In this document: piece by piece, positions 16,371 to 20,171 of the stretch | Numbering within the stretch: the stretch's first letter is position 1 | Layout of the letters: each line of letters starts with the position of its first letter | Assembly: GCA_009773555.1 (NCBI GenBank) | Contig: WSXZ01000010.1 | Coordinates: 4,370-68,369, forward strand | Direction of reading: 5' to 3' | From: Methylocystaceae bacterium | Lineage (GTDB): Bacteria; Pseudomonadota; Alphaproteobacteria; Rhizobiales; Beijerinckiaceae | DNA: 64,000 bases | Notes under the pieces: model-generated | What the model was told of the DNA's origin: nothing | Databases searched by the model: none | Seen by the model: only the letters and a program-made list of their open reading frames with translations | Made by a program: the position numbers and the translations under genes

Positions 16371-18518
16371 CTACTCGGCGGCGATGCCCTGGGGGCCGTC
16401 GACCGACGCCCGATCAGCATCGTCCCTGGGCGTGGTTTCGTCGATGGCCGATTCGCTTTCGATCGCCGCCGATTGTTCGACGGCCGCGGAGTCTTCCGGA
16501 CCGGCGGCATCGGAAGATGCTTGCGCCGAAACATTCAGCGGATGTCCAGGCGTGCGGAGCGGCTCAGGAAGCCAGTTCGTTCCGGAAAGAAGCTGTTCCA
16601 CTTCTTGCGCCATGTCGCCCTTCTTCAGCCCCTCGATGCGCCGGGCGGCGCCGGCGCCTTTTGCTTCGCGAACCGCCTGGACCATCCGCGCCTTGGTGAC
16701 GCGGCCGAGGAAATTGTCGACCGTTGGCGTCCACCCCGTTGCTGCGATGTCGAGGGAAAGCGAAACCGCGAGACAATCCGCATGGGCGATAGCGCGCGGC
16801 CGTCGGCTCCAGGGCTCGTGCACGGCGTTTACCGTCAGTGAGACGCAATGTGCGAAGAGTTGCTGGCGCGCTTCGACGTCAAAGGTCGTGAGTGCGTCCC
16901 AGAGGTCTTGCGGCTCCGCCGGGAGTTGCTGCGACCAGTCGAGATGACGCGCGTCGACCTTCGCTGCGAGCGGCGTATCCGAGAGACCTGGCGCCTGTGC
17001 GCCGTGACAAACATTCTTCGCTTCGATCTCAAGACAGGTGTCGGAGCCGTAGCGATAGAAGAGCCGCAGACACAGGGCATGAAGCGCCGCGAGGAACGCG
17101 GTGTCCGGGTCATTGCCGAGCGCCTCGCGCAGCGCCAGCGTGCGATAGGCGGTCAGTTCGGTCAGCAATTTGTCCGCCAAAGGCCTAACGCCTTCGTCTT
17201 CCTCGTCTTCCACTGGGCTCGTTCGAACAGCGTCATAGCCATCGGATGCGTCGGGATGAGGCATGACGGCCGCAGTCGAACCCGCGCCAGCGGCTTCTTC
17301 GATCTCGCTTCCGGCGATTGATGCTTCGGGCTCCTCGCTTTGCGCTTCGTCCTCGGGGCGGACGTAGCCGCGCTCGACCCGCAGCCGTCCAGATCCATCA
17401 ATGCTGACAAAGACGCCCGCGCGGGCGATATCCTCCGGCGCATAGATAACTGGACGATCTTCTATCGCTTCGAGCGCCGTCTCGATCTCCCCAAGGCGCG
17501 CGTCAACCTCTTGGGGGATTTCGTCCCCTTCCGAATAGTCGGCTTCGAGCTGAGCGGCCTCGAGACGAAGCGACTCACGGGTTGCGACTTCTTCTTCGCT
17601 CAAAGTCTGGCGTTCGCCCTGAAGGTGGCGGAGCCCATAGATGTGGCCATAGGGGAAGTCGATCGCCGTCTCGACCCATTTCCACCCCTCGGCCCGGACG
17701 GGCTCGGCGTCGCGTGCTAATTTTTCGGCGACCAGCCGTTCGAGTAAAGCGACATCCTGTAGCCAACCGCCGTCATCGCTCTGGAAAAGGTCGCGCATGA
17801 TGGGCCCGCCGGCGGCGAGATAGTCTTCGCCGACATATTGCGCGCGCTTGTCGGAAACCCGCACCGCGTCTTCGGTGAGAAGGCGGCGGATTTGATAGGC
17901 TTCCTTATTGTAGGAGCGCTGGATCGCCTCCCAGACCTGCTCCTGACGCTCATGATCAGGATTGACGGTAAAGGCCATGAGCTGATCGAGCGTCATGCCG
18001 TCCTCGGCGTAGATGTCGAGAAGGCTTGGGGACACCGAGGCAAGCCTCAGTCGCTGCTTCACAACGGCGACGCTGACGAAAAAGGCAGCAGCGATCTCCT
18101 CCTCACTTTGGCCTTTCTCGCGCAAGGTCAGAAAGGCCCGGAACTGATCTAGGGGATGCAGAGGCGCGCGCTGGATATTTTCGGCGAGGCTGTCTTCCTC
18201 AGGGGTCCCTTCCAGACGAATGACGCAGGGGATGAGGGCGTTGCGTGCGAGGCGCTTCTGCTTCACGAGAAACTCCAGCGCGCGATAGCGGCGCCCGCCA
18301 GCGGGGATTTCGAACATGCCGGTCTCTGCGCCCTGATCATCGACGATAGCTCGCACGGTGATGCTCTGCAGGAGCGTGCGGCGCGCGATGTCTTCCGCGA
18401 GTTCTTCAGTTGAGACCCCGGCCTTGATCCGGCGGACATTCGCCTGAGACAGGACCAGCTTGCTGAAGGGAATATCGCGCGAGGCGCTGAGCTGGATTTT
18501 CTGAGCCGACTTGGCCAT
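16371..18518 (-). CDS. ParB/RepB/Spo0J-type nuclease-domain protein of the element
   Basis: This 715-residue protein has a ParB N-terminal domain. The residues are PFSKLVLSQANVRRIKAG (17-34), the box FEIPAGGRRYRALEFL (68-83) and the CTP-binding-like EEDSLAENIQRAPLHPLDQFRAF. An HTH follows at EEIAAAFFVSVAVVKQRLRLASV. A long acidic C-terminal half, far beyond chromosomal ParB length, is typical of the plasmid and ICE family. It could act in element stability or as a nuclease. The gene is led by a structured element also present upstream of the DUF932 gene. Gene order DUF932 then ParB on the minus strand suggests related control. Confidence 0.88.
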   Translation of the reverse strand: MAKSAQKIQLSASRDIPFSKLVLSQANVRRIKAGVSTEELAEDIARRTLLQSITVRAIVDDQGAETGMFEIPAGGRRYRALEFLVKQKRLARNALIPCVIRLEGTPEEDSLAENIQRAPLHPLDQFRAFLTLREKGQSEEEIAAAFFVSVAVVKQRLRLASVSPSLLDIYAEDGMTLDQLMAFTVNPDHERQEQVWEAIQRSYNKEAYQIRRLLTEDAVRVSDKRAQYVGEDYLAAGGPIMRDLFQSDDGGWLQDVALLERLVAEKLARDAEPVRAEGWKWVETAIDFPYGHIYGLRHLQGERQTLSEEEVATRESLRLEAAQLEADYSEGDEIPQEVDARLGEIETALEAIEDRPVIYAPEDIARAGVFVSIDGSGRLRVERGYVRPEDEAQSEEPEASIAGSEIEEAAGAGSTAAVMPHPDASDGYDAVRTSPVEDEEDEGVRPLADKLLTELTAYRTLALREALGNDPDTAFLAALHALCLRLFYRYGSDTCLEIEAKNVCHGAQAPGLSDTPLAAKVDARHLDWSQQLPAEPQDLWDALTTFDVEARQQLFAHCVSLTVNAVHEPWSRRPRAIAHADCLAVSLSLDIAATGWTPTVDNFLGRVTKARMVQAVREAKGAGAARRIEGLKKGDMAQEVEQLLSGTNWLPEPLRTPGHPLNVSAQASSDAAGPEDSAAVEQSAAIESESAIDETTPRDDADRASVDGPQGIAAE

Positions 18519-18533
18519 GGGAATGAACTCCGC

Positions 18534-18576
18534 GACGGGCGGCCGGGAGCCTCTCTCTCGGCCTCCAACCCGTCAC
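18534..18576 (-). promoter_or_regulatory. Structured leader hairpin upstream of the ParB-like gene (copy 2)
   Basis: Read on the minus strand, GACGGG and CCCGTC form an outer stem (18574-18569 with 18539-18534). GGCCGAGA with TCCCGGCC forms an inner stem with one A-C mismatch (18563-18556 with 18548-18541), and the loop is GAGAGGC. An internal loop TTGGA lies on the 5' side. A GGAG follows 2 bases after the outer stem, and the ATG is 15 bases beyond the stem. The same architecture and sequence precede the DUF932 gene. Confidence 0.65.
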
Positions 18577-18687
18577 GAAGCGCAGCGCCGCCCTCTGACT
18601 TTGAGGGCGACGCCAAGACATCGCGGAGTCGAGGGCAAGAGCAGCGACGGGCGCCTGACACAGCGCTTGCCACTGCGCCAGCTGGAA

Positions 18688-19884
18688 TTACGCCGCGCGG
18701 TCGAACAGTTTCTTTGCACGCGTCTCGAGATCGAGCCTTGCGTCCTGATGCGTCTTCTTACGCGCGATCGCCGTAATCCCTTGCACAAAATCGAAGACGC
18801 TTTCCGGCTTGCGACCTTCCTCAGTCAGCACCGTTCCGATGATCTTCGCCGTCTCTGCTTTCGAAAAGCCGCGCTTGCGCAGGAATTCGACGCGATCATC
18901 GTCATTGTGGGCGACAATCCGTTCCCGCGCAGCCTTGACGCCATTGATAAAGGGCATGGGCGAGGAATTGGCGAAGCGCGTCAGCGCCGGCGCCGCCTCA
19001 TGCGCAAAACGCGACGCGGCATATTTTGAGTGACGAATTGCGATCTCCTGGAAATCCTCGACGCCCCAAAGATTGCGGTTCTGACAAACGGCTCGAAGAT
19101 AAAAGCTTGCAATGCCTAGCGACTTCGCGCCGACTTCTGAGTTCCAGCAGTAGAAACCTCGAAAGAAAAGATCGGGCGACCCGTCGTGCAGACGGCCGGC
19201 CTCGATCGGGTTCAGATCATCGACGAGGAAGAGGAAGACGTCGCGGTCTGAGGCATAGAGTGTCGTCGTATCCTGTGTCACGTCGACATTGGGGTTGTAG
19301 ATTCCTGTCGACCAGTCGAGCACGCCCGGAACTTTCCAGCGGGTGTCGCCTGTCCCATTGCCCGCGATGCGCTGCACTGCGGATACGAGTTCATGATCGA
19401 AGATCCGGCCATAGTCTGGACCGGTCACTGCGCGCAGCTCGATCCGGCTGTCGTCGGTCTCGAGCGTCTTGATCTGCTCGGCGCGATGCGCGCTCAGCCC
19501 ATATTGCAGATTGATCCCAGCGAGCGGCGCAGGAAGCTGACGGAGATATGTCGCTGGCGCGCCGACGAGACTCGCGAGTTGACCAAAGCTCCAATGCGTC
19601 GGCGCGATTGGCGCATCGGAACCAGGCAGCAAGAGCGCAAGCGTTTCTGAATCGTCGCGTCTGGCTTCGACGCGGATCGCAGCGCTCTCTACCGTCCGCG
19701 TTCGGCTGCGCTCGGTCCTACCGTGCACGGCCGCGAACAGCTCCGACAGCGACAGATACCGCTCATCCGCGGGCCGCGAGAACCATTCAGAGGACAGGCG
19801 TCCAATCCGCACGCCGCGGCTCGCATCCACCTTGTAGCCGCCGTCATGTCCGCGCGCGGCGTCCAGAAATTCCACGTGAGTCAT
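18688..19884 (-). CDS. DUF932 domain-containing protein (phage/plasmid-like)
   Basis: This 398-residue protein contains the DUF932 core: PTHWSFGQLASLVGAPATYL, NLQYGLSAHRAEQIKTLETD, VTGPDYGRIFDHELVSAVQ, LYASDRDVFLFLVDDLNPIE and GFYCWNSEVGAKSLGIASFY. The family is widespread in phages and conjugative elements. Some members are described as antirestriction or recombination-related, but no activity is secure. The ATG before THVEFLDAARG follows the structured leader; longer upstream reading would translate that leader. It is the outermost backbone gene next to the tRNA-Lys end. Confidence 0.87.
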   Translation of the reverse strand: MTHVEFLDAARGHDGGYKVDASRGVRIGRLSSEWFSRPADERYLSLSELFAAVHGRTERSRTRTVESAAIRVEARRDDSETLALLLPGSDAPIAPTHWSFGQLASLVGAPATYLRQLPAPLAGINLQYGLSAHRAEQIKTLETDDSRIELRAVTGPDYGRIFDHELVSAVQRIAGNGTGDTRWKVPGVLDWSTGIYNPNVDVTQDTTTLYASDRDVFLFLVDDLNPIEAGRLHDGSPDLFFRGFYCWNSEVGAKSLGIASFYLRAVCQNRNLWGVEDFQEIAIRHSKYAASRFAHEAAPALTRFANSSPMPFINGVKAARERIVAHNDDDRVEFLRKRGFSKAETAKIIGTVLTEEGRKPESVFDFVQGITAIARKKTHQDARLDLETRAKKLFDRAA

Positions 19885-19897
19885 GGTCCGTCTCCAT

Positions 19898-19938
19898 GAC
19901 GGGCACCGGGAAACTCTCTCCCGGTCCTCAACCGTCAC
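19898..19938 (-). promoter_or_regulatory. Structured leader hairpin upstream of the DUF932 gene (copy 1)
   Basis: On the minus strand an outer stem GACGG/CCGTC (19936-19932 with 19902-19898) encloses a perfect inner stem CCGGGA/TCCCGG (19924-19919 with 19911-19906). The terminal loop is GAGAGTT and the 5' internal loop is TTGAGGA. GGAG lies just after the stem and the ATG is about 13 bases downstream. Sequence and fold match the leader of the ParB-like gene. Confidence 0.65.
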
Positions 19939-20027
19939 GGAAACCGGACCCCGCTCTCACTCTCGTGCCTCGCGGGCTCGCCTGTTGAGGTATTCGATCA
20001 TCCCCAAGAAAAATTCTGCGCAATCGG

Positions 20028-20049
20028 TTGGTCACCATATGGTCACCAA
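20028..20049. repeat. Near-perfect 22-bp dyad beside the tRNA-Lys end
   Basis: Two copies of TGGTCACCA (20029-20037 and 20040-20048) are spaced 11 bp apart. Because the unit is itself almost self-complementary, the whole 22 bp also reads as a dyad centred on CATATG, with a single mismatched pair (20033/20044). It lies 47 bp from the tRNA 3' end, where recombinase or regulator sites of an island boundary would be expected. Confidence 0.55.
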
Positions 20050-20095
20050 GCCTAACTGCGAGCCAATTGTGAAGGCTCTATATCTTTGATTTTGT

Positions 20096-20171
20096 TGGTG
20101 AGCGCGGTGGGGCTCGAACCCACGACCCCCTGATTAAAAGTCAGGTGCTCTACCGACTGAGCTACGCGCTC
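20096..20171 (-). tRNA. tRNA-Lys(TTT)
   Basis: A full cloverleaf is visible on the minus strand. The acceptor stem is GAGCGCG/CGCGCTC, the D arm has AGCTCAGTCGGTAGAGC, and the anticodon stem CCTGA/TCAGG encloses CTTTTAA with anticodon TTT at 20138-20136. The T arm is GTGGGTTCGAGCCCCAC, and the 3' CCA is encoded. The 3' end faces the accessory island, fitting use of this tRNA as the integration site. Confidence 0.97.

Follow-up and report, generated by a model that had tools for sequence, protein, structure and literature searches.

Why should two genes of different families, one ParB-like and one of the DUF932 type, begin behind the same folded leader in the 64,000-nucleotide stretch of DNA analysed here (the window), and what could that leader do for them? 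An earlier note on this DNA had claimed a paired leader before both genes, and the pair is real: both copies were located on the minus strand, immediately 5' of the two genes, and both fold better than shuffled sequence. The leader is a new family of a known kind, the cis-regulatory leader RNA; the family itself, its covariation, its gene set, its fixed position, the predicted sequestration of the ribosome-binding site and the folding of the sense strand were computed here. We propose that these leaders are a family of cis-acting translational OFF-switches of establishment genes of alphaproteobacterial plasmids and ICEs, likely read by a trans-acting factor, and we put the probability of this reading at about 0.72.

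The two leaders of the window

On the minus strand the DUF932 gene comes first and the ParB-like gene follows; the features of the locus are given in that order.

20099-20171, minus strand: tRNA gene (RF00005), upstream of the DUF932 gene and on the same strand
19954-19963, minus strand: box AGAGUGAGAG, 15 nt before the DUF932 hairpin
19892-19938, minus strand: DUF932 leader hairpin, with P1 GUGACGG/CCGUCAU, a 5' internal loop, P2 ACCGG..CCGGU, loop AGAGU, and GGAG
5' half of the DUF932 copy, minus strand: GUGACGG at 19938-19932, UUGAGG at 19931-19926, ACCGGGAGAGAGUUUCCCGGU at 19925-19905
3' half of the DUF932 copy, minus strand: CCGUCAU at 19902-19896, GGAG at 19895-19892, 7 nt, AUG at 19884-19882
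19885-19895, minus strand: DUF932 GGAG and the spacer ACGGACC to the AUG, predicted to pair with the upstream arm GGUCCGGUUUCC (19939-19950)
18688-19884, minus strand: DUF932 gene, 398 aa from the AUG at 19884; PF06067 at E 7.6e-4 and 19.8 bits, below the 23-bit cut-off
18593-18602, minus strand: box of the AGAGNNAGAG type, variant AAAGUCAGAG, 16 nt before the ParB hairpin
18528-18576, minus strand: ParB leader hairpin, with P1 GUGACGGG/CCCGUCGC, a 5x1 internal loop UUGGA/G, P2, apical loop AGAGG, and GGAG
5' half of the ParB copy, minus strand: GUGACGGG at 18576-18569, UUGGA at 18568-18564, GGCCGAGAG at 18563-18555, AGAGG loop at 18554-18550
3' half of the ParB copy, minus strand: CUCCCGGCC at 18549-18541, G at 18540, CCCGUCGC at 18539-18532, GGAG at 18531-18528, 9 nt, AUG at 18518-18516
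18528-18531, minus strand: ParB ribosome-binding site GGAG, 9 nt before the AUG, predicted to pair with the upstream CUUC (18577-18580) with an SD pairing probability of 0.999
16371-18518, minus strand: ParB-like gene, 715 aa; ParB_N match below the Pfam cut-off

Measured against dinucleotide shuffles, the leaders with their flanks reach z -3.9 (ParB) and -5.8 (DUF932) and the leader cores alone reach z -4.3 and -4.4, respectively, with 0 of 200 shuffles doing as well in each case; the inner stem of the ParB copy contains one A.C mismatch. The distance from stem to ATG is 13 bases in the ParB copy and 11 in the DUF932 copy, which corrects the 13-15 bases claimed previously. The GGAG had been placed just past the outer stem and is indeed adjacent to it; in the predicted fold, however, it also pairs itself with the upstream arm, through CUUC in the ParB copy and GUUUCC in the DUF932 copy, the latter with pairing probabilities to the 5' arm of 0.996 for the SD and 0.99 for the spacer. 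The continuation of the outer stem through the GGAG and the conserved upstream AGAGNNAGAG box are two features that the earlier note did not contain. The ParB-like protein of the window shares about 28% identity, along about 90% of its sequence, with ParB-family proteins of numerous enterobacterial plasmids. Read-through from the tRNA gene upstream of DUF932 into the leader could occur.

The leader family and its spread

Searching the genome by similarity to the leader region gave four further locations; a second copy on contig C31 was spotted by eye, and the covariance model R1 was built from seven aligned copies of the window's genome. Run on that genome, R1 recovered the same seven copies and, at chance level, two others (E 0.4 and 0.8); it gives the ParB leader 82.5 bits and the DUF932 leader 53.7 bits, scores that are not independent because both copies are among its seven training sequences. 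A degenerate pattern, composed after the family was known, matches the window once, at the ParB copy, and none of 100 shuffles; the DUF932 copy misses it by having one G fewer.

The covariance-model search that had been suggested for the two leaders finds matches before the same genes in many genomes. R1 matches 17 of 41 relatives, the window's genome included, and in the order it matches 67 of 297 genomes. A second model (R2; 126 copies) matches 27 of 385 genomes of the class, which its named relatives suggest to be Alphaproteobacteria, and 35 of 398 in the phylum sample, 34 of which belong to the window's own class (the order, class and phylum samples overlap); the single match outside the class (G748; E 0.0099, no gene behind it) was treated as chance. 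A strict pattern found at least 120 stretches in named genomes. The titles among the listed matches are, by eye, alphaproteobacterial (rhizobia, Paracoccus, Sphingomonas, Caulobacter, Roseomonas, Asaia and others), the exceptions being one Gammaproteobacteria MAG, four MAGs titled 'Proteobacteria bacterium' and two titled only 'bacterium'. The contig titled Gammaproteobacteria carries two strong copies (63.9 and 59.6 bits), and it may be misclassified or its copies may have been transferred. Three viral contigs match the leader pattern as well, and blastn with the window leader against plasmid records found 137.

The fold is kept while the sequence changes, as had been surmised from the two copies alone. 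Among 122 distinct rows, 14 of the 17 base pairs change on both sides and 97.3% of cells are paired. Five measures were compared with 500 shuffles, none of which equals the alignment in a single one, and with the partner column shifted by 1-3 positions no more than 15-52% of cells pair. These alignments are fitted to the model, and their related rows are non-independent and can beat shuffles without structure. A second set from named genomes (90 of 120 loci; 129 distinct rows, 15 of them identical to earlier rows, so that the two sets partly overlap) gives 13 of 17 pairs changing on both sides and again 97.3% paired; here the search pattern had prescribed the outer stem and GAGAG, so that only part of the inner-stem signal is fresh. 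When 304 distinct copies were pooled from three alignments, a few doubtful rows included (e.g. L215 and L089:6200), the apical loop proved to be AGAGG in 205, AGAGT in 35 and AGTGG in 21, the 5' internal loop was 5 or 6 nt long in 292, and a single base stood opposite it in 271.

Present in 39 of 122 sampled genera of the order, the RNA family is large, strongly covarying and without an Rfam match, which agrees with the earlier inability to place it in a named family. With gathering cut-offs, Rfam returned two tRNAs in the whole window and nothing at the leaders; a permissive search of the leader region gave chance matches only (17 bits versus a 60-bit gathering score), and a search of 13 related loci gave no family. 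No description of the leader was found among the matches listed in an open-access literature search by title or abstract start. Genes of the radC RNA motif include anti-restriction genes. This motif (RF01754, 149 positions) is listed as a probable cis-regulatory RNA of Proteobacteria in Table 1 of PMC2864571, and it is set apart from our leader by search scores rather than by a comparison of folds: radC has no match in the window or the 13 related loci and none over the cut-off in 142 genomes of the class, two falling below it. The STAXI motif, which the same source places near genes for single-stranded-DNA-binding proteins, topoisomerases, anti-restriction proteins and integrases, consists of repeated pseudoknots, whereas the leader is a single hairpin at the ribosome site.

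Other signals were sought in the element. The GGA in the apical loop expected for CsrA/RsmA is present in none of 20 loops listed; a GGA outside the apical loop occurs in 69 of 304 copies, where the 5' internal loop is UUGGA or UUUGGA. A U-run after the stem, as in a terminator or attenuator, was not found (mean 0.9 T in the following 8 nt). For an upstream ORF that might control the hairpin, starts at least 8 codons upstream occur in 61, 86 and 8 of 184 copies by frame, counted without a control, and are constant in none. A coding origin of the shared sequence, which had been named as a possible objection, is rejected as unlikely, since the downstream frame extends uninterrupted across the element in only 69 of 186 copies and the TGA within GUGACGG ends another frame in most.

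The genes behind the leader

An ATG-started frame follows 186 of 199 copies, and its product is ParB-like in 88, the anti-restriction protein ArdC in 51, DUF932 in 27, a 182-residue family (c3) in 13 and a 128-residue family (c4) in four, with three singles. The set of pattern matches has 142 copies with a frame: ParB 72, ArdC 35, DUF932 20, c3 12, c4 1, AlpA-like 1 and none 1. The ArdC label combines a reading of the sequence with a PF08401 search, which found the same genes at several loci; the AlpA-like label is a reading of the sequence alone. Among the top 45 clusters of neighbouring frames listed, no gene besides the controlled ones recurs often enough to be an obvious regulator.

Over 95 loci, the commonest arrangements are ArdC>ParB (36), DUF932>ParB (23) and ArdC>ParB>c3 (9). 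The gene in the slot before a leader-bearing ParB gene belongs to ArdC, DUF932 or the 128-residue family and has a leader itself, and DUF932 may be able to substitute for ArdC. Since DUF932 takes ArdC's slot before ParB, we regard DUF932 and the 182- and 128-residue families as candidates for anti-defence or establishment functions.

The association was also followed from the genes back to the leader. Among 30 rows of ParB homologues, the leader is present in 19 of 19 with at least 53% identity to the window's protein, four of the 19 coming from the window's own genome, and in one of nine below that level; one broken fragment without the leader and a second fragment of a counted gene are omitted. 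Distant ParB homologues in pAgK84, one Pseudomonas plasmid and one Burkholderia plasmid are without it. Homologues lacking the leader, which had been named as evidence against it, thus exist among distant relatives, whereas all close ParB-like ones carry it. For DUF932 (18 rows) the leader was found in 13 of 16, two internal fragments being omitted, and for ArdC in six of the 30 loci fetched from 35 ArdC matches; one further ArdC locus, outside those 30, has an adjoining R2 match. ParB-family proteins resembling that of the window occur in at least 5000 plasmid records, of which 4112 of those counted are typed conjugative. That the leader is confined to the class though ParB homologues range far beyond it hints at a host factor of the class or a factor carried by the element.

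Several single loci deserve mention. On contig C17 a ParB copy has an intact-looking leader and an in-frame stop in the gene. Contig C9 (L002, about 1433-1733) has a second DUF932 start with its leader, cut short beside a tRNA-like sequence; this stretch is 87% similar to the 19880-20171 region of the window and is probably a remnant at an attachment site. The Methylocystis iwaonis plasmid has a weak third match (L248 67-116; E 0.0074) about 0.4 kb upstream of DUF932. Three of the four c4 leaders (L195 5137-5197, L211 4640-4701 and L213 4742-4803) have a different inner hairpin around GGAACGG and are without the strict AGAG box; they are perhaps a variant subfamily.

The ribosome-binding site and the proposed switch

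The placement suits translational control, as had been suggested. The GGAG lies 7, 8 or 9 nt before the ATG in 183 of 186 copies (searched range 3-17) and 7-9 nt before it in 140 of 142 of the pattern set; it served as an anchor, which accounts for part of its invariance. Upstream of GUGACGG the flank is rich in pyrimidines and able to pair with the GGAG. Sequestration of the ribosome site, one of the options originally raised, is what the folding model predicts: the mean pairing probability of GGAG with the arm is 0.836 over 182 distinct copies with flanks, and it exceeds 0.5 in 164 of 179 copies (ParB 76/84, ArdC 50/51, DUF932 24/27, c3 10/13, c4 4/4). The third base of the GGAG is unpaired in 53 of 164 copies, with a G.A mismatch there in 48 of 164.

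When upstream arms were swapped between copies, the mean fell to 0.777 (all copies) or 0.799 (within class), a modest effect, and 0 of 15 swaps of either kind reached 0.836. The spacer likewise pairs better with its own arm (0.591) than with swapped arms (0.529 for all and 0.541 within class), and the spacer-arm duplex energy is -5.68 as against -5.23 when swapped, none of 100 within-class swaps being as low. Counted from the first G of the GGAG, the pooled copies show covariation of the arm with spacer bases 5, 7 and 8 (0, 0 and 1 of 400 shuffles, respectively) and with none of bases 6 and 9-12. By class, bases 5 and 7 covary clearly in ParB (0 of 400 each), the signal at bases 5, 7 and 8 is weak in ArdC (28, 179 and 70 of 400 shuffles), and it is absent in DUF932 (400, 397 and 223 of 400). 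Pairing above 0.7 is predicted in 145 of 184 members versus 68 of 166 control genes, compared in the same GC-rich DNA by a near-identical measure, and the mean fold z is -3.63 in members versus -1.49 in controls. Predicted sequestration is common in this GC-rich DNA and clearly stronger in the leader family.

Among ParB homologues without the leader, the ribosome site is not consistently hidden. Non-family ArdC genes have it paired in 13 of 19 with a usable start (four more are without one) versus 68 of 166 controls (p 0.007); a general rule that all ArdC leaders hide their site is suggestive only, since their fold z is no different from that of controls (p 0.20). Some ArdC genes without the leader (L233, L236, L247, L230, L246 and L237) have other strong hairpins pairing the ribosome site, with z -8.6 in L233; these are possibly unrelated leaders of the same kind. 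Leaders that sequester the ribosome site are familiar from, for example, the transposase mRNAs of insertion sequences, in which a hairpin not known to be shared between genes pairs the Shine-Dalgarno sequence. The present family has the same SD pairing in its predicted fold and differs in that its loop and box are conserved and that it recurs in front of five or more gene families.

That box has the consensus AGAG[UG][GA]AGAG and keeps a nearly constant distance of about 16 nt to the GUGACGG downstream. Allowing a shift of 1 nt, 150 of 184 copies have the strict form AGNGNNAGAG at one and the same position, and 32 lack it; in the pattern set it is present in 129 of 149 copies. Sequence conservation drops to background above about -36, just upstream of the box. 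Its first AGAG is predicted to be 68-74% unpaired in the four main classes and its second 42-59%. Since the box resembles the AGAGG apical loop, one ligand touching both is suggested. The box of the window's ParB copy falls within an additional predicted hairpin (18584-18614; segment z -3.22), where it occupies the loop and the 3' arm. A common extra hairpin around the box was rejected as not general, with a mean z of -1.38 in ParB, -2.03 in the four c4 copies and -0.2 to -0.4 in ArdC, DUF932 and c3. A small competing hairpin of the 5' arm, likewise not adopted as a feature of the family, is 1.8, 1.4 and 0.8 kcal/mol better than shuffles in DUF932, c3 and ArdC, respectively, with no gain in ParB and c4.

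In the proposed switch, the mRNA would fold as a long hairpin in which a 5-6 x 1 internal loop separates the conserved outer stem from a variable inner stem capped by an AGAGG pentaloop. Pairing of the outer stem would extend through the GGAG and often into part of the spacer, and translation, we infer, would be lowered, being off by default. The AGAGG loop, the internal loop and the upstream box would be the contact points of a trans-acting factor, which is postulated on the strength of these conserved and mostly unpaired motifs and which would set the switch for ArdC, ParB-like, DUF932 and the two further families. Some signal would then open the hairpin and release the silenced genes.

It is doubtful that the hairpin is an insulator only, blocking translation of read-through mRNA while the true transcripts start inside it and no dedicated regulator exists. 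Insulating hairpins of a similar kind precede some transposase genes, the DUF932 gene of the window lies about 0.2 kb downstream of a same-strand tRNA gene, and the ribosome site is predicted to be sequestered, all of which would suit such a role. A pure block, however, has no need of the conserved AGAGG loop, internal loop and upstream box, and copies are also found within gene clusters such as ArdC>ParB>c3. Moreover, sigma-70 hexamers, the only promoter type considered, are no commoner inside the element than in shuffles, the best combined match being 6-7 of 12 in 175 of 182 copies; upstream of the leader, six sites at 9 of 12 are scattered among 195 copies.

We consider it improbable that the element enhances translation or stabilises the mRNA 5' end, with the hairpin protecting the transcript or forming a standby platform and the AGAG box serving as the standby site. 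The mostly unpaired first AGAG would fit a standby site, but the stem takes in the GGAG itself, and the better pairing of the spacer with its own arm is also at odds with such a platform.

The likeness to Frpo/ssi of F-type plasmids, described in PMC9849209 and PMC11541004 as a repeated hairpin before leading-region genes of conjugative plasmids, raises the question of which nucleic acid folds. According to PMC9849209, F uses single-stranded promoters to express its leading-region genes as it enters, and a leader acting as such a promoter would be active as the transferred strand enters the recipient. The controlled genes, which we take to resemble leading-region genes, would suit this, as would the Methylocystis iwaonis plasmid, in which the same gene order is followed within the cluster by an SSB gene. 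Frpo rebuilds -10 and -35 boxes in transferred-strand DNA, whereas in the leader the sense strand folds and is predicted to hide the ribosome site, no clear -35/-10 of sigma-70 consensus exceeds the shuffled level, and a hairpin that reaches the ribosome site leaves little room for a start site downstream. Among 3137 stem cells of the sense strand, G.U occurs 404 times versus 43 for A.C, and 22 of the 43 fall at one inner-stem pair; folding of the template strand or a DNA duplex would reverse or erase this bias, and the mRNA is thus the likely functional molecule. A single-stranded promoter is accordingly a remote prospect. Scarcely credible is a double-stranded DNA operator, with nested palindromes to which the ParB-like protein or another repressor would bind, for although the stems are inverted repeats upstream of genes, the one-strand G.U bias, the compensatory changes of the variable inner stem and the 7-9 nt spacing to the ATG all speak against it.

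For the translational OFF-switch itself, the identity of the controlled genes leads us to infer a role in timing during transfer: ArdC, DUF932 and ParB-like proteins presumably act as leading-region genes. The main text of PMC11541004 names neither DUF932 nor ArdC. We tentatively suggest, as a possibility rather than an expectation, one shared translational operator that stays closed while the element is resident and opens in response to a factor, or a form of the transcript, that exists only shortly after transfer. If so, the leader would be a post-transcriptional counterpart of Frpo and would mark its genes, including DUF932 and two unnamed families, as anti-defence candidates. To our knowledge, the timing of anti-restriction and establishment genes in alphaproteobacterial plasmids and ICEs has been little studied; a shared leader that can be scanned for offers a testable control point and groups these genes into one set.

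Farther upstream, a conserved block of about 75 nt lies about 30-130 nt before the leader of many of the ArdC or DUF932 genes listed (L178, L181, L183, L187, L204, L071 and others). It has three apparent hairpins, GGGGAAAGCCUUCCCC ... GGCCGAG..CUCGGCC ... UGCGGGGAGACCCCGCA, and may be another RNA or DNA site.
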